DNA of 12,412 nucleotides from JACPSX01 sp035288405 [NCBI: bacterium]. Lineage in GTDB: Bacteria > JACPSX01. The position numbers and the translations under genes were made by a program. Location of the stretch: assembly GCA_035288405.1 (NCBI GenBank), contig DATEAK010000241.1, forward strand, positions 1 to 12,412. Reading direction: 5' to 3'. Shown here piece after piece: positions 1,222 through 12,412 of the stretch. Under the pieces are notes generated by a model, which did not search any database, was not told the DNA's origin, and worked only from the letters and a program-made list of their open reading frames with translations. Position 1 is the first letter of the stretch, and each line of letters begins with the position of its first letter.

Positions 1222-1228
1222 AAGGAGG
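1222..1228 (+). promoter_or_regulatory. Strong ribosome binding site fixing the coiled-coil gene start
   Basis: AAGGAGG lies 8 nt before the ATG at 1237. This nearly full Shine-Dalgarno sequence fixes the start codon and suggests efficient translation. Confidence 0.85.
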
Positions 1229-1236
1229 AATCGAGC

Positions 1237-3528
1237 ATGCCGGAACAGGATCAAGTAGCCAGAGATTCATCTGGGGAAGGCACAGTCTCCGGAGCCAAGC
1301 AGGAGATCGAAGCTCTTAGGGAGTTGTTGCAGGAAGTGTCCCAGGAGCGGCGCAGCTTGAAGACCATGCTCGATTACGCGGACATGAAAACCAAGGAACT
1401 AGCCGATAAGAGCGGGGTTTTCGAAGCCATTGAGGAGAATATCACCCGTCTGCAAGGCAATGCCAAAAAAGTGGAAGACCGAGTCAGCTCGATCGACCAG
1501 TTCCAGACACGGCTCGACGAGGCCGAGCGGGGGATGCACCGTCTCGACGATCTGGGTGCTACGGTCAAACGGGAAGTGACGAGCCTCAATTCCCTGGTTG
1601 AGCACGTCATGAACAAGACCAAGGCCTTGACCCAGCAGCGGCGCCTGGTGGAGAAGGCCAACGAGGAAGCGGGCCGGCTCAACGTCCTCCTGTGGGATAT
1701 GGAGTCCAAGGTCAACAAATTAGCGGAAGAAAACAAGCTGATCAAGAAAGCCGAAAAGAATGTGGCGAAACTCGAGGGGATGATCGAGGGTGTGACGTCC
1801 CGGATGAATCAGGTGGGCTCTCTGAGAGATCTGATCACCCAGGCCTCCTACAAGATCGAGACTCTGGAGAACCTTTCCGAGGGGCTGGAGGGGACTCTCA
1901 GCAAGTTCCAGAAGGACCGGGAATTTGTGGAAGCCCTCAAGGTGGATTCAGATATCCTCCGGGAAACTCTGGAAAATTGCCAGCGCAACATGGATGAGCT
2001 CTTCAAGCAGGACGCCCAGGTGGAAGAGATGCGCAAAGAGATCAACGTACTGGGCCCCTCCTTGGAAGCGATGCGGACGGAGATGAGAAGTCTGTCCCAG
2101 CGGGGCGAGATCCTGCAACGGGTGGGGCAGCGTCTCAAGGAACTCGATGCTCTAAACGCGCAGCTTGCCGATAAGGTCGCCAAGGTATCCGAGGACAAGG
2201 GAGAGGTCGACAAGATCGAGCAAAAGGTCCGCCAGGTCCACACGTTCCTAACGGACGAGGTGGAGAAGAAGATGGAAACCCTCATGGTGCAGGCCGCCAA
2301 CGTGGAGGAGACCCGCCGCAAGTTGGAAGACTTCGCCTTCAGCCTTCGGGAGGTGGAAAGTAAATTCGCGGGCTTCCGGGAAGAGCTCAAGGGGGTGGAT
2401 GCCATCGAGACGAACCTGAAGCGTCTGGGCCAGATGTCCCAAGACGTCACCGTGAGGGTCGAAGAAGTCGCTGCCCGCCGCCAGCTCGTGGAGCAAGTCG
2501 AGCGGAAGCTCAACGACCTGAACAATACGGTGATCAATATCGACATGAAGATGGAGACCCAGCTCCAGCGCAAGGGCCTGGTCGACAAGCTGGAAAAGAA
2601 GCTCGATGCGCTTGATTTTTACCTGGAAGACGCCAACCTCAAGGTGGACAAAACGACCAACCGGATTGCCTTCATCGAGAAGGTCGACAAGCGCATGGAT
2701 TCCCTGCGGGATCTCATGGACGAGGTGGAGAACCGGATCCTGGATCTGACCAAGGATAAGGTTTCGGTCGATGCTCAGGAAAAGAGAATTAACAAGCTGG
2801 TCATCACACTGGAGCAGCTCAGCGAGACCGTGGACAAGAAAATCTCGCAACTGGTCAAGGGCCAGGCGGAGTTTGCCAAATTAACTGAGATCAAGGATAA
2901 CCTGATCATCATGCTCCAGGAAATCGACGGCAAGGTGGAACGGGTCAACGCCAAGACACGGTCGGTTGACGAGGTTGAGGAGAAACTGATCACCTCCGAG
3001 GGGAAGATCCGGGAGCTGGAAGTCCGTATCGACTCCATCAAGGACGAGGAAGACCTGCTGCTGCAAACCGAGAAGCGCGTGGGACAATTGAGCGCCATGC
3101 TCGACACGATCGACGGCCGAATGAGCCAAATCTCGGAGAAGGAAAAGCTCTTAAGAGGCGTGCAGCAAGACGTGGCCACGGTGCATTCCCTCCTTGAAGA
3201 AGCCCGCCAGGAAATCAAGACCCTGCAATCCGAGAGCAAGCGGCTTGATGAGGTGGCGCAGAGGGTGGATGGTCTCGTCCAGGTCAATCGAGAGGTATCC
3301 TCCGAGATGGAGGATCTGGCCCGCAGAGAGGTCGAGATCGAGCGCGCCGAAGAACGCCTCAATCATCTGCAGATTGCCTACGAAGACATGAAGGTGAAAC
3401 TGACCAATCTGGCCCAGGAAACCCAGCTTGTGGAACGGGCCCAGGAAAAGGCCTCGGAACTGCGCTTTCTGATCGATGAGACGGAGAAAAAGATGCAGGA
3501 TTTGATCCGTTCCAGGGAGATGCAGTAA
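1237..3528 (+). CDS. Long coiled-coil protein made of 23 tandem 31-residue repeats, unknown function
   Basis: 763 residues, with no domain I recognise: no Walker A/B motif, signal peptide, membrane segment or cysteine cluster, so it is probably cytoplasmic. Residues 1-30 are a short leader. Residues 31-763 divide without remainder into 23 units. Nineteen are exactly 31 residues; the exceptions are unit 3 (45, two extra heptads, 93-137), unit 10 (32), unit 16 (35) and the last (32). Each unit has hydrophobic residues at 1, 4, 8, 11, 15, 18, 22 and 25 (heptad a/d), often acidic position 2, Lys/Arg at 21 and Val/Met/Ile at 22. The phase then resets, giving 28+3 residues, or one stammer per unit. 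Such a rod could be roughly 110 nm long if fully helical (inference). Generic searches would probably label it SMC-like or a chromosome segregation ATPase, but it has no ATPase head. rimI follows after 14 nt, so the two are probably co-transcribed. Confidence 0.9.
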   Translation: MPEQDQVARDSSGEGTVSGAKQEIEALRELLQEVSQERRSLKTMLDYADMKTKELADKSGVFEAIEENITRLQGNAKKVEDRVSSIDQFQTRLDEAERGMHRLDDLGATVKREVTSLNSLVEHVMNKTKALTQQRRLVEKANEEAGRLNVLLWDMESKVNKLAEENKLIKKAEKNVAKLEGMIEGVTSRMNQVGSLRDLITQASYKIETLENLSEGLEGTLSKFQKDREFVEALKVDSDILRETLENCQRNMDELFKQDAQVEEMRKEINVLGPSLEAMRTEMRSLSQRGEILQRVGQRLKELDALNAQLADKVAKVSEDKGEVDKIEQKVRQVHTFLTDEVEKKMETLMVQAANVEETRRKLEDFAFSLREVESKFAGFREELKGVDAIETNLKRLGQMSQDVTVRVEEVAARRQLVEQVERKLNDLNNTVINIDMKMETQLQRKGLVDKLEKKLDALDFYLEDANLKVDKTTNRIAFIEKVDKRMDSLRDLMDEVENRILDLTKDKVSVDAQEKRINKLVITLEQLSETVDKKISQLVKGQAEFAKLTEIKDNLIIMLQEIDGKVERVNAKTRSVDEVEEKLITSEGKIRELEVRIDSIKDEEDLLLQTEKRVGQLSAMLDTIDGRMSQISEKEKLLRGVQQDVATVHSLLEEARQEIKTLQSESKRLDEVAQRVDGLVQVNREVSSEMEDLARREVEIERAEERLNHLQIAYEDMKVKLTNLAQETQLVERAQEKASELRFLIDETEKKMQDLIRSREMQ

Positions 3529-3542
3529 GGCTGTCGAGAGCC

Positions 3543-4022
3543 ATGTCACGGAAAGTCGATCGGAAAGCGTCCATCGAGCCCATGACGTTCGAGGATCTGG
3601 AAGCAGTCATGGCGATCGAGAAGCTTTCCTTTTCCTCTCCCTGGTCCCGATCGGCCTTTGTTCATGAACTAGGGCTCGAGGGCCTCTCCTGTAATCTGGT
3701 TATCCGCCACCCCGATAGTCACTTCCCCGGCCATGTCGCGGGTTATGTCTGCTTCTGGCACGTCGTCGACGAGATCCACATCACGAATCTGGCAGTTCAC
3801 CCCGATTTACGCCGGCGTGGCTTCGGCCGCAACTTGATCCAGGAAGTTCGGAAATTTGCCGAATCCAGCCGGGCGAAACGGTTGCTTCTCGAAGTCCGGC
3901 GCTCGAATTTTTCCGCCCAAAATCTCTACCGGGAACTGGGATTTTCGCCGATCGGGGTTCGCCGGGGGTACTATGAGGATACGAGCGAAGATGCCCTGGT
4001 GATGGAACTCATTTTGCCATAG
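3543..4022 (+). CDS. rimI: Ribosomal protein S18 alanine N-acetyltransferase RimI
   Basis: A 159-residue GNAT-fold cytoplasmic enzyme. The family transfers acetyl from acetyl-CoA to the N-terminal alanine of ribosomal protein S18. Seen: the RimI hallmark EKLSFSSPWSRSAF (residues 26-39); the acetyl-CoA pyrophosphate loop RRRGFG (90-95); the general-base glutamate in LLLEVRRSN (E117); the acid tyrosine in LYRELGF (Y129), with the 12-residue Glu-Tyr spacing of E. coli RimI; and the C-terminal RRGYY (140-144). Length is normal, with a short N-terminal tail. The gene starts 14 nt after the coiled-coil gene and has only a weak purine-rich site (GAGAG), so it probably depends on the upstream transcript. 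Many genomes place rimI near tsaB or other translation genes; here its partner is the coiled-coil gene. No terminator is obvious in the 112-bp gap before the convergent gene. Confidence 0.92.
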   Translation: MSRKVDRKASIEPMTFEDLEAVMAIEKLSFSSPWSRSAFVHELGLEGLSCNLVIRHPDSHFPGHVAGYVCFWHVVDEIHITNLAVHPDLRRRGFGRNLIQEVRKFAESSRAKRLLLEVRRSNFSAQNLYRELGFSPIGVRRGYYEDTSEDALVMELILP

Positions 4023-4665: not shown

Positions 4666-4953
4666 CTACCCGCGGACGCTTCTCTTGGAGGCCTTCAGTG
4701 GATTGAGCTTCTTGGCGGGTTCCTTATCACCGTTCCCGTTGCTTACGTGGGTGGCATAGTTACAGCGACCCAGCACCCACTTGGCGGCGGGGTTCCCGTA
4801 GGTATCACAGAACTTCCCGGCGGATTCCTCGACGATATGGGCACAACCCTGGCAAGCCTCTACGATGGGGTAGCATTCCCCTCCGTTAAAAGAGCAGCCC
4901 TTCTCCTTCATGAAAACGCATTCGGTGCCGAGCCGTAAGGTAGCACAATTCAT
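4666..4953 (-). CDS. PxxKW-family cysteine-rich small protein
   Basis: 95 residues. It matches the pattern of the small 'PxxKW family cysteine-rich protein' group, whose function is unknown as far as I know. Seen: eight cysteines (C3, C12, C20, C27, C34, C37, C49, C64), arranged as ECYPIVEACQGCAHI then FCDTYGNPAAKW; the name-giving PAAKW at 55-59; the following GRCNYATH; and a basic tail NPLKASKR. The spacing suggests metal or Fe-S binding, which is inference. The ATG at 4953 is chosen because AAGGAGGTGA (4959-4968) stands 5 nt upstream. A GTG further upstream falls inside a GC hairpin and is not credible. It is small and soluble with no signal peptide. The YkgJ gene follows on the same strand. 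The group is, in my recollection, mainly found in anaerobic Deltaproteobacteria. Confidence 0.82.
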   Translation of the reverse strand: MNCATLRLGTECVFMKEKGCSFNGGECYPIVEACQGCAHIVEESAGKFCDTYGNPAAKWVLGRCNYATHVSNGNGDKEPAKKLNPLKASKRSVRG

Positions 4954-4958
4954 TGAAA

Positions 4959-4968
4959 TCACCTCCTT
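4959..4968 (-). promoter_or_regulatory. Near-consensus ribosome binding site of the PxxKW gene
   Basis: AAGGAGGTGA is almost fully complementary to the 16S anti-Shine-Dalgarno sequence and lies 5 nt before the ATG. It decides the start codon and predicts high translation of this small protein. Confidence 0.85.
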
Positions 4969-4989
4969 TTCAGAGATATTCACAATAAA

Positions 4990-5011
4990 GCCCGGGGCCG
5001 GAACCCCGGGC
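4990..5011 (-). terminator. GC-rich hairpin with T-rich tail, terminator-like
   Basis: Perfect 8-bp arms GCCCGGGG and CCCCGGGC enclose a 6-nt loop. On the minus strand the hairpin is followed by TTTATT. It lies 138 nt past the stop of the gene ending at 5149 and only about 20 nt before the ribosome binding site of the PxxKW gene. It may end the upstream operon, or act as an attenuator if the PxxKW gene is read from further upstream. It has no T tail on the plus strand. Confidence 0.65.
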
Positions 5012-5148
5012 ACACAAGTGTTGCAAAGTACAGGACAAGAGCGAAAAAGGCAAGGGGTTTTTCAGGAATTTTCAGGGGGGCGGAGGGTTCTCGCTATTTC
5101 CTATACCGTTGACCCGGGTGGTAACGGAAGTGGGTCTGTGGGTGGAGG

Positions 5149-6271: not shown

Positions 6272-7249
6272 TCACTTTAGGACAGCCTGCATCGCCCTGA
6301 CCATGAGCGTTTGAGCCGCCCGGATCTTATAGCGGTTGCCGGGGAGGGGGGTAGCTTCCGAGAGGACCGCTTGGGCCGCTTCCGCGAGGAGATCCTTTCT
6401 GGGCTTCTGCCCCAAGAGCATCTCCTCGGCTTTCCGGGCCCGGAAGGGAATGGGGGCCACCCCACCCAGGACCAGCCGCATCTCGACAACCGTTCCTCTC
6501 AAGACCCGGCCCGAGCAAGCCGCGCTCACCACGGCGAAGTCTCCGGTTCCTCGCTCCCGGAACTTTAAGTAGGTTCCCCGGGTCCCCGCCTTGGGCTTGG
6601 GAACCTGGACTTCGATCAGGATCTCTCCAGGAGTTAAAACCGTTTCCCGGGTTATGTCCTGGGTGGGGAGAAGGAAAAATTCTTCCAGGGGAAGGAGCCG
6701 TTTGTCTTTGGCTCCGGCCAGCACGACTTGAGCGTCCAGAGCGATGAGAACGGGGGCTAAATCCGAGGGATGGACCATAGGGCATGGTTCGTTTTGCAGG
6801 ATCGCGTGATAGCGATTGACTCCGTCCAAGGCGAAGCAGGTCCTTCCGCCCTTCTTCGCACAGAGGAGGAGAGGATGGCGATAATAGAAGCAGCGGGGGC
6901 GCTGGCAGAGGTTGCCCGCCACGGTTCCCACCGCCCGGATTTGTGGGGTGGCAAGAGTGGAGAGTGCCTCCGAAAGGATTGGAAAATTCCGACGCAGGAT
7001 CGGATATCCCGCCAACTGGGACAGAGAGACCATGGCGCCGATCCTCAGGGCTCCATCCTTCTCGCGAAGCTGGGCCAGGCTCGGCAGTCTCTTCAAGTTC
7101 AGAATAAATTCCGGTTTGGCGATCCCTTCCTTGATTTCGTTGAGGAGATCGGTGCCTCCGGCAATGGGCAGGGCGGAAGGTCCCTGGCGTTTCAGGAACC
7201 GGCAGGCCTCTGCCACAGACTGGGGTTCGGCATAGCGGAAGGGGTGCAA
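6272..7249 (-). CDS. Xanthine dehydrogenase-family FAD-binding subunit (medium subunit)
   Basis: 325 residues. This subunit takes electrons from the 2Fe-2S subunit and passes them through FAD to an acceptor; it is cytoplasmic. Seen: the N-terminal FAD motif PIAGGTDLLNEIKEG (28-42), the second FAD motif TPQIRAVGTVAGNLCQ (101-116), and a C-terminal domain typical of CO dehydrogenase flavoprotein families. Between the halves is a cysteine-bearing segment: C115, C120, C130, C138, C156, including RCFYYR and CxxxxxxxC. 4-Hydroxybenzoyl-CoA reductase carries a 4Fe-4S cluster in this place, so a cluster here is plausible (inference). The start is TTG at 7249, with a purine-rich AGAGAGATTAGGA before it, only 3 nt after the stop of the large subunit, so translational coupling is likely. 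It is the last gene of the operon. The substrate cannot be told from this subunit. Confidence 0.92.
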   Translation of the reverse strand: MHPFRYAEPQSVAEACRFLKRQGPSALPIAGGTDLLNEIKEGIAKPEFILNLKRLPSLAQLREKDGALRIGAMVSLSQLAGYPILRRNFPILSEALSTLATPQIRAVGTVAGNLCQRPRCFYYRHPLLLCAKKGGRTCFALDGVNRYHAILQNEPCPMVHPSDLAPVLIALDAQVVLAGAKDKRLLPLEEFFLLPTQDITRETVLTPGEILIEVQVPKPKAGTRGTYLKFRERGTGDFAVVSAACSGRVLRGTVVEMRLVLGGVAPIPFRARKAEEMLLGQKPRKDLLAEAAQAVLSEATPLPGNRYKIRAAQTLMVRAMQAVLK

Positions 7250-7252
7250 GTC

Positions 7253-9526
7253 CTAATCTCTCTCTTGCAATCGGAGTTTGTCGAGGATCTTGTCGGGAGT
7301 GATCGGTAGGTCCTGGAACCGAATCCCGATCGCGTTGTAAATCGCGTTGGAGATCGCCGGTGCCACCGGAATCGATGGGGGTTCGCCGAGGGCTTTCGCA
7401 CCGAAGGGACCCGCCGGATCGGGGGCGTTCACGAAAATCGTTTTGAGGGGCGGGAGATCCACAATCACGGGAACCTTGTGCTCCAGGAAATTTCCGTTTA
7501 AGGTGACCCCGGTTTTCAGATCGGTGAGTAATTCTTCGGTGAGCGCAAACCCGAGCATCTGAATGACGCCGCCTTCCACTTGATTTTGAGCGGCCACAGG
7601 ATTTACGATGCGGCCCGAATCGTGGGCCGCCACGTATTTTACCACCGTAACCTTCCCGGTTTCCGTGTCCACTTCCACTTCTGCAAAGTGAGCTGCAAAG
7701 GAATTAATAACGAATTCCGTGCTCCCTGGGCGGATCTCAACGCGGACCCGACGTTCCTCGGGTGAAAGTAGAGCCACTGCTTCTTTCCAGGAGACCTTCT
7801 TTTTCGTCGGCCTGGTTATCTGGATGGCTCCCTTGTTCCAACTCACCGATTCACGACTTGTCCCCATGTGGGCACAGACGCGGTCGAGAATTTTCTCTCT
7901 TAGAGTCGTAGCAGCCTCTTTCACGGCAGTGCCCATGGAGAACGTGGTCGAGGACCCTGACGTGACCGGAGCTTCGGGGGTCGTTGCCGTGTCTCCGCCC
8001 AAGATGCTGACACGGGAGGGTTCAATCCCCAATGCTTCCGCGCCGATTTGAAGCAGCGTTGTGAAGGCTCCTTCCCCTACATCGATCGTTCCGACTCGAA
8101 TCTCCACGCTGCCATCCGGGTGGACTTCCACTTCAGCGCCTGCTTTATGGGCCAGCCCTCCCCGGTAGAGTCCCATAGCCATACCCAGTCCACGCTTTTG
8201 GTGCCCCGGGGATGAATTCGGTGAATGCCAGCGACGCTGCCAGCCGATGGCCTTCGCTCCCAGGCGCAGGCATTCGGACAGCCGGTTGCTCGAAAACGGG
8301 ATTCCACCCTCCACCGGCTGGTCGGAGACCAATTCCCCGGGAGGAGTTTGACGCTCACCGGGTTGTCCCTCGGGCTGCACGTGATGACGCCGGCGAAATT
8401 CCAAGGGGTCAAGACTCAGGGCCTCCGCAATCTTGTCCATGTGGACTTCCAGAGCGAATTGCCCTTGCGGGGCACCCAGCGCCCGGTAAGAGCCGGCCAC
8501 CGGAAGGTTCGTATACACGAGTGTCCCTTCGTATTTCGCATTGGGCGTCCGGTACAAATAAAGAGAGCCTTGACCGCACCGGCGGATTACCGCGTTGCCC
8601 GAGGACATGTAGGCGCCCTTGCTCATGATCGTGCGAGCATGGATTGCGGTGATCTCTCCGCTGCGGCTGATGCCCACCTTGAGGTGGGTAATCGACGGGT
8701 GGCGGCTGCGTCCGGCTATGAATTCTTCCTCTCTGGTGTACTCAAGGCGCACGGGCTTCCCGCACTTGCGGGCCAGGAGAGCGCACAGGGTGCCCATTCG
8801 GGTCTCATCCTTGCTGCCGAATCCGCCTCCCATGGCGGGGCAGATCACCCGGACCTGCTCCGCGGGGATCCCCAGACCTTGTGCCAGGGCAGGACGATCG
8901 ACCATATGAACACCCCGGCTTGATTTCCAAATGGTCAGAGAATCCCCTTCCCACCGGGCTAGAGCGGCTCGAGGTTCCATGCCGGCGGCGCAGTGCACCT
9001 GAGTCGTGTAGGTGCCTTCGAAGATATGCTGGGACTGCGCAAACCCTGCCTCTACGCTGCCCCGCTCCAAGACAATCGGCTTTCCTGCCAGATTGCCGCC
9101 CGGATGGATCGGGAAGGCATCCGGCTTCATGGCTTCCAGGGGATCGAAGAGAGCGGGTAAGATCTCGTACTCCACCCGAATGCGTTCCAGAGCGGCTTCC
9201 GCAATGTCTTCCCGAACCGCCGCCACGGCAGCTACCTCATCTCCGACAAAGCGCACGGTCCAATCCAAAACTGCCAGGTCGGACTGCAAACGGCGGTTCG
9301 GGGGAATATCCTTCGGCGTGATGACCGCGACGACTCCCGGCATTGCTTCGGCGGCCGACGTATCGATGCTCACGATGCGGGCATGGGGGTGGGGGCTGCG
9401 CAAGATTTTCCCGTGCAACATTCCGGGAAGCTTCAGGTCGCCCGTGTATTGCAGGCGGCCGGTCACTTTTTCCGCGGCTCCGAGACGCGTGAGGCTTTTC
9501 CCCACCACTGCGAGAGACCTAGGCAC
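7253..9526 (-). CDS. Xanthine dehydrogenase-family molybdopterin-binding catalytic subunit
   Basis: 757 residues with the GTG start chosen here; normal family length. It binds the molybdopterin cytosine-dinucleotide type cofactor and hydroxylates, or in some relatives reductively dehydroxylates, an unknown substrate. Seen: the N-terminal VVGKSLTRLGAAEKVTGRLQYTGDL region, GGGFGSK (233-239), SYRALGAPQ (346-354, with the Arg often near substrate), DVGEGAFTTLLQIGAEALG (where many relatives have GQG), and the catalytic glutamate in GEPPSIPVAPAISNAIYNAIG (E715). The frame is open to 9664, but residues upstream of the GTG overlap the 2Fe-2S gene in another frame and look non-homologous. The GTG at 9524-9526 overlaps that gene's stop and has AGAGGA 5 nt upstream. 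The FAD subunit follows after 3 nt. Candidate substrates include purines, aldehydes and aromatic acyl-CoAs; I cannot choose. Confidence 0.92.
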   Translation of the reverse strand: MPRSLAVVGKSLTRLGAAEKVTGRLQYTGDLKLPGMLHGKILRSPHPHARIVSIDTSAAEAMPGVVAVITPKDIPPNRRLQSDLAVLDWTVRFVGDEVAAVAAVREDIAEAALERIRVEYEILPALFDPLEAMKPDAFPIHPGGNLAGKPIVLERGSVEAGFAQSQHIFEGTYTTQVHCAAGMEPRAALARWEGDSLTIWKSSRGVHMVDRPALAQGLGIPAEQVRVICPAMGGGFGSKDETRMGTLCALLARKCGKPVRLEYTREEEFIAGRSRHPSITHLKVGISRSGEITAIHARTIMSKGAYMSSGNAVIRRCGQGSLYLYRTPNAKYEGTLVYTNLPVAGSYRALGAPQGQFALEVHMDKIAEALSLDPLEFRRRHHVQPEGQPGERQTPPGELVSDQPVEGGIPFSSNRLSECLRLGAKAIGWQRRWHSPNSSPGHQKRGLGMAMGLYRGGLAHKAGAEVEVHPDGSVEIRVGTIDVGEGAFTTLLQIGAEALGIEPSRVSILGGDTATTPEAPVTSGSSTTFSMGTAVKEAATTLREKILDRVCAHMGTSRESVSWNKGAIQITRPTKKKVSWKEAVALLSPEERRVRVEIRPGSTEFVINSFAAHFAEVEVDTETGKVTVVKYVAAHDSGRIVNPVAAQNQVEGGVIQMLGFALTEELLTDLKTGVTLNGNFLEHKVPVIVDLPPLKTIFVNAPDPAGPFGAKALGEPPSIPVAPAISNAIYNAIGIRFQDLPITPDKILDKLRLQERD

Positions 9527-10010
9527 GGGTCCTCTTTCCCCTTCTGGAAGCGGCAAGGACGGATTCGATGATTTTCGCGTACGCGCTGCAGCGGCATATG
9601 TTCCCCGATAGCGCTTGCTTGACCTGGTCGGGGCTCGGTCGCCGGGTACGTTCGAGGAAAGCATTCGCCGTCATGATAAAGCCGGGCGTGCAAAATCCGC
9701 ACTGGACTCCATCGTGGTCGACAAAGGACTGCTGGATCGGGTGCAGCTTGCCGTTTCGCTCCAGCCCTTCAATGGTGGTGATTCTCTGGCCGCGGGCCTG
9801 AACGGCCAAAACCTGGCAAGCATAGACGGGTTCTCTCTCGAGTAAAACGGTGCAGCTTCCGCACTCCGCCCGGTCGCAACCCTTCTTGGCGCCCGTGAGG
9901 CCCAAGTGATCGCGCAGGACTTCGAGGAGAGTCCAATGAGGCTCGATGGTCAAGGAACGGCGTTTTCCATTCACAATGAAAAAAACATCCCAGCGTTTTT
10001 TGATTTTCAC
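9519..10010 (-). CDS. Xanthine dehydrogenase-family 2Fe-2S subunit (small subunit)
   Basis: 163 residues from the GTG at 10010. It carries two 2Fe-2S clusters that relay electrons from the molybdenum site to FAD. Seen: the plant-type ferredoxin cluster GCDRAECGSC (C45, C50, C53) with C65, and the second, helical-domain cluster QCGFCTPG (C104, C107) with NICRCSAY (C139, C141). Length is typical. The open frame extends to an ATG at 10190, but that extension crosses the promoter at 10041-10070 and has no family similarity. The GTG has AGGAG (10020-10024) 9 nt upstream and begins just before the family's conserved KRWDVFFIVNGKRR. It is the first gene of the operon, and its last 8 nt overlap the start of the catalytic subunit. 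Confidence 0.93.
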   Translation of the reverse strand: MKIKKRWDVFFIVNGKRRSLTIEPHWTLLEVLRDHLGLTGAKKGCDRAECGSCTVLLEREPVYACQVLAVQARGQRITTIEGLERNGKLHPIQQSFVDHDGVQCGFCTPGFIMTANAFLERTRRPSPDQVKQALSGNICRCSAYAKIIESVLAASRRGKRTRA

Positions 10011-10019
10011 GTCTTGGTG

Positions 10020-10024
10020 CTCCT
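10020..10024 (-). promoter_or_regulatory. Ribosome binding site that decides the 2Fe-2S subunit start
   Basis: AGGAG on the minus strand, 9 nt before the GTG at 10010. Together with the promoter just upstream, it rules out the much longer open frame. Confidence 0.75.
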
Positions 10025-10040
10025 GGTAAGATTGGCCCGC

Positions 10041-10070
10041 AGTATAAATAGGCTCTCCTCTCTTTGTCAA
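10041..10070 (-). promoter_or_regulatory. Strong sigma-70-type promoter of the hydroxylase operon
   Basis: On the minus strand a perfect -35 TTGACA (10065-10070) is separated by 18 nt from TATACT (10041-10046), five of six -10 positions. Transcription would start near 10034, giving a leader of about 25 nt before the GTG at 10010. CTCCTC (10055-10060) and GAGGAG (10072-10077) form an inverted repeat around the -35 box, which may be chance or a repressor contact. Confidence 0.75.
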
Positions 10071-10084
10071 TGAGGAGGTGGCGA

Positions 10085-10096
10085 TTTTCCGGAAAA
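10085..10096. promoter_or_regulatory. Perfect 12-bp palindrome upstream of the hydroxylase promoter
   Basis: TTTTCCGGAAAA is centred about 56 nt before the predicted transcription start and 14 nt upstream of the -35 box. The position suits an activator site. No regulator gene lies in the window to match it, so the role is inference. Confidence 0.4.
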
Positions 10097-10374
10097 AATT
10101 GGGATTTCTTGCAATTGTCAGGCGAGGGGGGGAAGAACCGCTCATCCTTCGGAGCTGGAGGACTCCCTCATGATGCAAATGGCTCAGCACGGTTTTTCGC
10201 GTTTTAGGTCAGATTGCAGATGGCTTTTCTCTGGGATTGGTGTGCGAACGAGAACCAGCCGATGCTTACGGGCCGGCTGGCCACCTTCGCATCATGAACC
10301 GGCTCGGCGTCACAGGGGAGGAGCCATAGAAATCCTCGGCCGGTTTCTTCATCGGTGTCGCCTCCAACGTACGG
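10097..10374. other. Intergenic stretch between the two molybdoenzyme loci
   Basis: About 280 bp with no recognisable gene. It holds a 28-codon minus-strand frame with a good ribosome binding site (listed separately) and an inverted repeat CCAGCCG (10255-10261)/CGGCTGG (10274-10280) with a 12-nt loop. The repeat lacks a convincing T tail, so it is a poor terminator candidate for the upstream molybdoenzyme gene. A plus-strand frame at 10170-10424 has GGAGG 8 nt before its ATG but runs antisense into the next gene and has arginine-rich, non-protein-like composition. Confidence 0.4.
10266..10352 (-). CDS. Possible 28-residue small ORF downstream of the molybdoenzyme gene
   Basis: The peptide starts MKKPAEDFYGSSPVTPSR and ends WPAGP. 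GGAGG lies 8 nt before the ATG, and the start is 22 nt after the stop of the molybdoenzyme gene, as for a coupled downstream gene. I recognise no family, and CISM operons would normally have a ferredoxin-like subunit here. It could be a genuine small protein, the stump of a lost partner gene, or chance. Reading other frames onward gives no recognisable continuation. Confidence 0.2.
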   Translation of the reverse strand: MKKPAEDFYGSSPVTPSRFMMRRWPAGP

Positions 10375-12412
10375 TCAGGCTTTGTACAACTTCACCCGCG
10401 GACTGGATTCGATGGCGGCCGTGATAATGTCCACGGTTTCCCAGCGCGTCGAAAGCAGCCGGTTGTAGGGGATTCCGTTACCGATGATGGGGTTCATGCC
10501 AAAAGCCCGGCGAGCCAGACCGCTGGCAACGCCGGCCACTTCGGGATGCACGAGTTCGGTGATCCTCACGGGCACCGGGCCGATCTTGCCGCCGAACTGG
10601 CTTTCGACCCAAACCCGATCGCCGTCCTTCAGTCCTTTCTTCGCGGCGGTCTTTGGGTTGATGAGAAGCTGCCCGAAGTAGGGGTCGTTCGCGGATACTT
10701 CTTGCAGGTAAGGATTCCCGTTCGTATTGCTGATGTCGAAGAGGAAGGGAGCCGTCTTCCAGACGACGCTGTACAGGTCGAAGTCGGCAGGCGCTGCGAA
10801 GGCCGGACCCCGTCTCCAGGTTGGCACGGGCTGGTAGTGGAAGCGGATTTCTTCCTCGCTCCAGCCCGGATGGGTGACGCCGGCTTCCTTCAGGTTCGCC
10901 AGCAGATCTTCTCCCACTTTCTTCAACGCCGCGTTGTAAATCGGGTGCCGCGTCTTGTTGTCGGGGAAGTAATAGTAGTTGAACACTTTTGCGGGCGGGA
11001 TCTTGCGGGCAATGAAGCCCACGTCTTTAAATGCCGCCAGTCCCTTGTTGGGGCCGTATCGGGACTTGAGCATGCGATCTACGATCTCGTCCACGGTGTA
11101 CTTGCCGTCCAGCGCGAGCCTGTAGTCTTCACCCAGTTCCCGGTTGAGAACGTGGTTCAGTCCGCCCTTGCCTTTCAGGATGCCGGCTCTCTCCGCCAGG
11201 TCCAGCAAAATGGCGTCCGCCTGCCGCGACTGGTACATGGCCGGCACCACAGGTTGTTGTACCAGGCTTCCGGTGAAGTTCGGCCTGGCCAGGCTCCAGC
11301 ATTTCCGTTCCGTGATCGTGGCCATAAGGGTCCGCTCCAGGACGCTGCTCTCGGGCAGGACAATATCGGCAAAGGCGGTATGTTCGTCCAGGTGATAGGA
11401 GATGGAGGCGATGAACGGAATGCGCCGTAGTGCCTCGCTGATCCGCTCCGATTCGGCGGCGGCTTTCGTGTACAGGTTGGTTCCAAAGGTGAGCATCACC
11501 TCGGGCTTGTACTCCAGGTGGTATTTCTCCGGATCGAGAATGACGTCTACCATGCGGAACCCCTGGGAGAAACCGTAATAGCAGAATTCGGCTGCATCGA
11601 TCCGGTTCGGGGGAAACTGGAAAGGATTGGGCGCATTCACCCCTTTGCTGGCGGGCGTAACGACACCGTCGGCGTCCGGCTTCATAACAGGGCCCGGCTC
11701 CGTGCCGTTGTCCCCGCCCGGAACATCCATGGCCCCCACCAGTGTGTTGACGACCATGGCCATCCAGTAGGCGAGATGGCCGAGATAGTGCCCGGTGAGA
11801 CCGCGGCCGATGGAGATCGCGGCGGGGCGATACGGGAAGGTGAAGCCGTCGATCTCGATCGTGCTGCCGATCCGGGCGGCTTCAACATACTCTCGGGTGA
11901 TCCGGCGGATGTTTTTTCCCGGAATCGTCGTGATGTCCTGTGCCCATTCCGGGGTGTATGGCTTGAGGTGCGCCTTCAGGATCGAGAAGGCGGGTTGCGT
12001 CTGCACCCCTTTCACGGTGAAGCCGCCTTCCAGCGCGTAGTCCTTGATCGTCGGATCGTCGAACGGCTTTGCCTTGTTTTCAACCGAGTCCCAGACCAGG
12101 GGCTTGTTGCTGGCCGCGTGGCGCATGTAGTTCCCGTCGGGATCGATGAGGTAGGGGCCGTTGCTCCGATTCTTCAGGAACCAGTCGTCGTAGGTGTTGA
12201 GTTCGTACAGAATGACGTTGGCCATAGCCAGGAGGAAGGCCAACTCCGTTCCCGGCCGAATCGGCACCCATTCCCCTTTGCTTGCCTCTACGGAGCAGCG
12301 GGGATCCACCACGATGGTTCGCATTCCCCTTTCCACCGCGTCCACGATATCCAGGGATGAGGGTTCCGCCGGCGCGAAATTGGGGCCCAGCGTGTTTCCG
12401 ATTGTGATGCAG
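10375..12412 (-). CDS. DMSO-reductase-family molybdopterin oxidoreductase catalytic subunit (partial, N-terminus outside window)
   Basis: The last 678 residues are visible; the frame stays open to the window edge, so the GTG at 12345 is not the real start. The visible part begins in the molybdopterin-binding domain: TIGNTLGPNFAP, then RTIVVDPRCS and WVPIRPGTELAFLLAMANVI. It continues through GAMDVPGG and ends with the beta-barrel C-terminal cofactor domain (FLFDISNTNGNPYLQE, LINPKTAAKKGLKDGDRVWV). The N-terminal 4Fe-4S site, any Tat signal and the Mo/W ligand lie outside the window, so location and reaction cannot be read. Segments such as STIEIDGFTFPYRPAA and RGLTGHYLGH remind me of the phenylacetyl-CoA:acceptor oxidoreductase/thiosulfate-polysulfide reductase side of the family; this is weak inference. 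No iron-sulfur or membrane partner gene follows downstream. Confidence 0.88.
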   Translation of the reverse strand, partial: CITIGNTLGPNFAPAEPSSLDIVDAVERGMRTIVVDPRCSVEASKGEWVPIRPGTELAFLLAMANVILYELNTYDDWFLKNRSNGPYLIDPDGNYMRHAASNKPLVWDSVENKAKPFDDPTIKDYALEGGFTVKGVQTQPAFSILKAHLKPYTPEWAQDITTIPGKNIRRITREYVEAARIGSTIEIDGFTFPYRPAAISIGRGLTGHYLGHLAYWMAMVVNTLVGAMDVPGGDNGTEPGPVMKPDADGVVTPASKGVNAPNPFQFPPNRIDAAEFCYYGFSQGFRMVDVILDPEKYHLEYKPEVMLTFGTNLYTKAAAESERISEALRRIPFIASISYHLDEHTAFADIVLPESSVLERTLMATITERKCWSLARPNFTGSLVQQPVVPAMYQSRQADAILLDLAERAGILKGKGGLNHVLNRELGEDYRLALDGKYTVDEIVDRMLKSRYGPNKGLAAFKDVGFIARKIPPAKVFNYYYFPDNKTRHPIYNAALKKVGEDLLANLKEAGVTHPGWSEEEIRFHYQPVPTWRRGPAFAAPADFDLYSVVWKTAPFLFDISNTNGNPYLQEVSANDPYFGQLLINPKTAAKKGLKDGDRVWVESQFGGKIGPVPVRITELVHPEVAGVASGLARRAFGMNPIIGNGIPYNRLLSTRWETVDIITAAIESSPRVKLYKA

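Follow-up and report, generated by a model that had tools for sequence, protein, structure and literature searches.

A 31-residue coiled-coil unit with a stammer in every repeat in a candidate cytoplasmic rod protein of bacteria

Long coiled-coil rods that depart from an unbroken heptad pattern have been described in both eukaryotes and bacteria. The nearest in design to the protein considered here is SF-assemblin of striated rootlets, whose rod is given in the accessible part of PMC8435291 as regular units that add a short insertion to four heptads (29 = 28 + 1 residues). Among bacterial proteins, crescentin is a long coiled-coil rod with a discontinuity (stutter) in its heptads (PMC10873595, in the excerpt available). 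FilP, Scy and Scc are also coiled-coil rods, of which FilP and Scc form filaments, and the relatives of FilP differ among themselves in rod architecture (extract of PMC2680258). The present analysis concerns a 12,412-nucleotide stretch of bacterial DNA (contig DATEAK010000241.1; hereafter the window) and, within it, a gene for a 763-residue protein that is predicted to form a soluble rod of 31-residue coiled-coil units. Each unit consists of four heptads and a stammer, and it is by this stammer in every unit that the rod differs from crescentin. The repeat of Scy is 51 residues long, is based on hendecads and winds in the direction opposite to that expected of this rod.

The original prediction placed a coiled coil at positions 1327-3525, which correspond to residues 31-763 of an open reading frame that starts 30 codons earlier, and divided it by hand into 23 units. 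The same count was obtained from a phase path computed on the single sequence with a cyclic 31-state Viterbi procedure, which required only three slips in the window protein, of +14, +1 and +4 residues. These account for three of the four irregular units noted by hand; the last, read as a further +1, is merely the C-terminal end. The +14 slip falls at residue 112 in the window protein, at 104 in the relative L021 and at 88 and 116 in the relative L022, and the +4 slip at 522, 524 and 533, respectively (530 by the family profile). A Fourier transform of hydrophobicity over residues 31-763, which had been proposed as a check, gave its peak at 3.455-3.458 residues (31/8.97) and lesser ones close to 31/13 and 31/7; a peak at 3.454-3.457 is present in all nine proteins of the set formed by the window protein, L001 and L018-L024. 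The strongest autocorrelation lags of the rod are 31 and 62, and the periodicity stands well above shuffled controls, the BLOSUM score at lag 31 being +0.47, when 300 shuffles reach no more than -0.19 at any lag from 2 to 319. The family profile resolves each unit into nine layers with the spacing 4-3-4-3-3-4-3-4-3, that is, four heptads and one stammer, as had been proposed. The layers occupy state positions 0, 4, 7, 11, 14, 17, 21, 24 and 28, and the stammer (an extra three residues) is centred on 14. One of the nine layers, at state 11, is weak, being polar in most units and hydrophobic in 23%. The Lys/Arg-hydrophobic pair previously noted at positions 21-22 of the unit is also seen in this profile, at states 3-4.

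Since the Viterbi profile was trained on the family with the window included, a split test was run as a fairer check. In this test, profiles built from units of seven homologues without the window were used to score other units of the window protein, with unit boundaries taken from the family profile that had included the window. A profile from units 124-340 gave window residues 563-748 a score of +86.7 bits in the expected phase and -47.8 bits in the next best, and the reversed test gave +74.0 versus -37.2 bits. For residues 342-465 the values were +49.2 versus -16.5 and +59.1 versus -37.2 bits. Every other phase scored negative, and the right phase exceeded the next best by 66 to 135 bits. 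The 31-residue repeat is confirmed as real.

A scan of public genome contigs yielded a sole relative, a 91% identical protein from a Candidatus Tectomicrobia metagenome assembly (L001; L052 is the same protein, and both are near-identical to that of the window). Profile searches starting from its genome (G001) at an E value of 1e-20 gave matches in 10 of 386, 57 of 291 and 25 of 289 genomes, in sets that overlap. In the first core set, nine proteins in all, lengths run from 755 to 765 residues and identities from 24 to 54% apart from L001, and the rod aligns with one single-residue gap; the lowest pairwise identity in the 61-sequence alignment is 21%. About a dozen short fragments were left out of the counts, and the set used for alignment and conservation left out L001 and L052, L025-L027 and L035 as distant or SpiroCoCo proteins, and L082-L083 as truncated. 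The distant relatives L025, L026 and L027 are longer, with 896, 913 and 881 residues. L025 carries 137 extra residues, about four units, before the W motif and keeps 452 residues in a single unbroken phase, with four slips in all. No relative was found among solved structures at E 0.01 for the single sequence, and eight profile matches to such structures, at 5.8e-05 or weaker, were to generic helical proteins (sigma-1, designed bundles, chemotaxis receptors). A phage or plasmid origin was rejected: tblastn gave no match in the phage and plasmid collections, and a pattern scan of viral contigs, reaching close relatives only, gave none either.

Strict conservation of length was a further claim of the original prediction. 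Of 60 relatives, 52 match the window protein without an indel over residues 45-750, although two of these (L132 and L133) cover only part of the rod. L023 has a 1-residue indel and L127 and L128 an 11-residue indel near residue 66; L129-L131 are without 65 residues near residue 96, including the W-motif unit, and also lack 7 residues, one heptad near the C-terminus, at about 709-712. In L074 and L134 the family match ends at profile positions 712 and 587 while the frame continues, as expected of frameshifts, L074 lying near a contig start. The three proteins L129-L131 constitute a natural deletion experiment for the conserved W-motif unit. Indels in clean multiples of 31, for which a check had been proposed, did not appear: the relatives show changes of 1, 7, 11 and 65 residues (65 = 2 x 31 + 3) together with the frameshift-like ends. 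When motif spacing is counted with no alignment, the LNVLLWDME-like motif lies 315 residues from the EDANLK-like motif in all 34 rows with both, and from the C-terminal motif 594 residues in 30 of 31 rows and 593 in one; 52 rows were examined, the others being without one of the motifs as written.

Indel rates were compared with those of SMC proteins, which consist of heads and a hinge joined by coiled-coil arms. The rod has 0.046 indels per 100 residues in 59 sequences without L074 and L134 (mean identity 0.45) and 0.095 when these are included (mean identity 0.44). An earlier value of 0.0065 per 100 (43 sequences) lacked 17 members added later without loci; since these hold most of the indels, it understates the rate, and 0.046 or 0.095 is the fair figure. 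SMC proteins were sought in 30 carrier genomes and matched in 27, and 21 sequences were used (loci L089-L110 minus L109, which was in the wrong frame), the mostly partial rows L111-L117 being left out. Their N-terminal arm was free of indels in all 210 pairs (mean identity 0.35) and their C-terminal arm had 0.168 per 100 residues (mean identity 0.32), the hinge and the N-terminal head part reaching 1.0 and 0.64. The hydrophobic peak of the arms lies at 3.499-3.506, and six arms of three SMC proteins score below zero on the 31-residue profile. Length is kept in most relatives, as claimed, but this does not set the protein apart, since SMC arms are about as constant; it is the period of the rod that is special, and near-constant length in another mechanically constrained coiled coil means that it is not proof of a ruler.

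A mean of 3.44-3.46 residues per layer should, from geometry, produce a left-handed supercoil tighter than that of heptads; calculation puts its pitch at about 100-130 Å and that of a heptad coil at 147-189 Å. The overwound supercoil of the original prediction stands to this extent, as a result of calculation. With a rise of 1.485 Å per residue in a coiled coil, 727 residues would give a rod of about 108 nm if straight. In a 2016 study of alpha/beta coiled coils, in the portion of the text accessible, stammers are described as raising left-handedness and as imposing a strain under which the helix takes up a short 3-10 segment; of the known structures that depart from the heptad, the vast majority are stated to have periods above 3.5 (PMC4786415).

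None of the 61 family members has a transmembrane segment (Kyte-Doolittle 19-residue mean above 1.6; the maximum of the window protein is 0.36), and a Pfam scan of the rod protein revealed no catalytic or ATPase domain, the one match over cut-off being to a coiled-coil model, Nuf2_DHR10-like. Conservation is concentrated in two patches about nine units apart (residues 122-180 and 418-469; Table 1), and the part of it that falls at non-core positions suggests binding sites. The lack of a membrane segment and of an enzyme domain, together with these patches, points to a structural rod in the cytoplasm. Most likely the protein would form a parallel homodimer, overwound relative to a heptad coil, which may either assemble laterally into a filament or link two partners bound at the conserved patches; on balance we regard this reading as probable, though well short of assured. 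The ratio of nonsynonymous to synonymous substitution rates (dN/dS) of 0.089 against L001 counts in its favour. As judged from the alignments, the constant length and the irregular places are kept in most divergent relatives, and the two patches keep their place in the architecture about nine units apart.

Several observations weigh against such a rod. In the window protein, charge has an autocorrelation of 0.13 at lag 31, where shuffles reach a maximum of 0.14 on average, and in the family mean this lag does not rank among the ten strongest. An AlphaFold model of the monomer from a two-row alignment is helical almost throughout, the helix being interrupted where confidence is low; its mean predicted local distance difference test (pLDDT) score of 57 and predicted template modelling (pTM) score of 0.27 make it too weak to be decisive. 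L026 and L027 need 9 and 10 phase slips, so that the regular 31-residue phase is weaker there, and their autocorrelation is led by lag 7 and not by 31. SMC arms are about as constant in length as the rod, and its gene neighbours are mostly metabolic.

The manner in which the rod would be used admits two more specific readings. An intermediate-filament-like cytoskeletal polymer is a serious possibility, although it falls short of being probable. The bacterial rod-domain definition used for candidates of this kind (more than 80 residues of coiled coil and no signal, membrane or enzyme domain; extract of PMC2680258) describes the window protein, in which signal peptides were judged from hydropathy only. 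Moreover a comparable design, with one skip residue added to four heptads, is known from SF-assemblin, a protein that polymerises (accessible part of PMC8435291). The lack of charge banding at 31 residues speaks against a polymer and against myosin-like packing; myosin-like banding at this spacing was rejected, since it does not rise above shuffles. It seems rather unlikely that the rod is a length standard or spacer between two bound partners and not a polymer. A ruler of this sort would fit the length kept in most relatives at low identity, the 315 residues that separate the patch motifs in every measurable row, and the report, in the same extract of PMC2680258, that filament formers of the FilP family vary in rod architecture. 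However, L129-L131 do without 65 residues that include the W-motif unit, and in its indel rate the rod resembles SMC arms.

The remaining alternatives concern the identity of the protein. That it is an ordinary long heptad coiled coil, such as an SMC- or Rad50-like stalk, in which the 31-residue unit is incidental, appears very improbable. ASRP, Rad50 and SMC models do match it (best 1.3e-23), and near-constant length is shared with SMC arms, but these arms differ in period and fail on the 31-residue profile, and in the split test the right phase leads the runner-up by a wide margin. SMC or Rad50 identity as such was rejected, given the lack of an ATPase head domain in Pfam, the differing arm period and profile, and an SMC_prok_B score of 56.3 versus an equivalog cut-off of 567.35. 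It had been foreseen that generic annotation would call the protein SMC-like and overlook the repeat; what Pfam and the SMC and Rad50 models recognise is indeed a generic coiled coil, whereas NCBIfam names SpiroCoCo, its best match in the databases but a poor fit. The whole-protein scores pass both cut-offs (SpiroCoCo_C, 151.1 versus 125; SpiroCoCo_N, 80.4 versus 75), and SpiroCoCo_C hits of 1e-10 or better occur in all eight members of alignment A2. Membership of that family is nevertheless quite unlikely. Single stretches in relatives reach from 59.5 bits (a close relative in G001) to 84.1 bits (G215), under the SpiroCoCo_C cut-off, so that the whole-protein pass appears to come from the summing of repeats; the NCBIfam cut-offs thus seem to be open to a different architecture such as that of the window protein. 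The three SpiroCoCo proteins over the family cut-off among the 386 genomes (L035, L036 and L037), from which the traits of the family were read in place of a written definition, have 1309-1693 residues, a hydrophobic N-terminus (19-residue mean 1.95-2.7), a main rod with a period of 3.634-3.636 and a tail after the 31-residue part. The window protein, soluble, shorter and 31-periodic throughout, has none of these features. A search of the open-access literature found no paper with the word SpiroCoCo.

Table 1. Position of the rod gene and of its features in the window
Feature	Positions	Strand	Basis and remarks
Coiled-coil rod protein gene	1237..3528	+	Open reading frame with ATG, 763 residues; 91% identical orthologue L001; dN/dS 0.089 versus L001
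AGGAGG ribosome-binding site	1223..1228	+	Upstream sequence; 8 bases before ATG
Rod, residues 29-763	1321..3525	+	31-residue units, one stammer each
Irregular stretch, residues 89-114, phase gain of 14 residues	1501..1578	+	Viterbi/family profile
+1 irregularity, residue 341	2257..2259	+	Same place in L021 and L022
+4 irregularity, residues 522-531	2800..2829	+	Viterbi/family profile
Conserved patch 1, residues 122-180	1600..1776	+	Family conservation; near-invariant N142, G146, N149, W153 and D154 outside core positions
Conserved patch 2, residues 418-469	2488..2643	+	Family conservation; unit 435-465 the most conserved of those listed

In the window, rimI (ribosomal protein S18-alanine N-acetyltransferase; 3543-4022) starts 14 bases past the stop codon of the rod gene, and a gene for an HldE-type kinase lies upstream in divergent orientation. 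Farther along are a cysteine-rich protein (PxxKW/DUF6811; 4666-5013), a three-subunit molybdenum hydroxylase of the xanthine dehydrogenase/aldehyde oxidase kind with flavin adenine dinucleotide (FAD), molybdopterin and 2Fe-2S subunits (6272-10190), and a molybdopterin oxidoreductase large subunit cut N-terminally by the window end (10375-12411). Across the loci an mtnP-like open reading frame, one representative of which is named by NCBIfam, is found downstream of the rod gene (33 of 46), and leuB-like and asd-like clusters upstream (22 and 24 of 46); these counts are lower bounds, most loci holding only about 1.5 kilobases of flank. The order in L022, L023 and most of L043-L081, with the rod gene after leuB/asd-like and before mtnP-like genes, amounts to a recurrent metabolic neighbourhood. 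In further branches the rod gene has as its neighbour NAD(P)HX epimerase/dehydratase (three loci), a penicillin-binding protein, pdxJ or rimI. Because the neighbours differ between branches, no function is read from the neighbourhood.

A natural rod of some 730 residues with a stammer about every 31, in a pattern kept over large sequence divergence, has several implications. Should a structure confirm it, the rod would be a natural example of a long overwound supercoil and would show how stammers can be distributed along such a protein. With its constant length and its architecture of whole units, it is also well suited to testing whether bacteria use protein rulers. Among the matches listed from the open-access literature, titles and the beginnings of abstracts contained no pointer to a 31-residue stammer coiled coil. 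It may tentatively be proposed, with more doubt than conviction, that the protein represents a new class of bacterial structural protein: a coiled coil of about 100 nm, constant in length and overwound throughout, with a stammer recurring regularly from unit to unit. Many bacterial genomes would encode it as a ruler or filament of the cytoplasm, and its 31-residue module would recur as the C-terminal stalk of SpiroCoCo proteins.

Set beside the known systems, the candidate rod shares different traits with each. The SMC arms of rod-carrying genomes likewise have very few indels at low identity, but their period is 3.50 and they are not 31-periodic. SF-assemblin inserts one residue where the rod inserts three, and its description sets it apart as a eukaryotic protein; in a test for its 29-residue unit, the rod showed a unit of 31 with a three-residue step. 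The closest agreement in period is with SpiroCoCo (NF047514, NF047515). In all three proteins a C-terminal stretch of 285 residues peaks at 3.455-3.458, as in the rod, and its strongest lag is 31 (in L035 jointly with 45), so that L035-L037 join two coiled-coil regimes: a main rod near 3.635 and, between it and a short tail, a 31-residue module of period 3.455. The 31-residue period is common to both proteins, the architecture is not, and the rod and the C-terminal part of SpiroCoCo are likely to descend from a common module.
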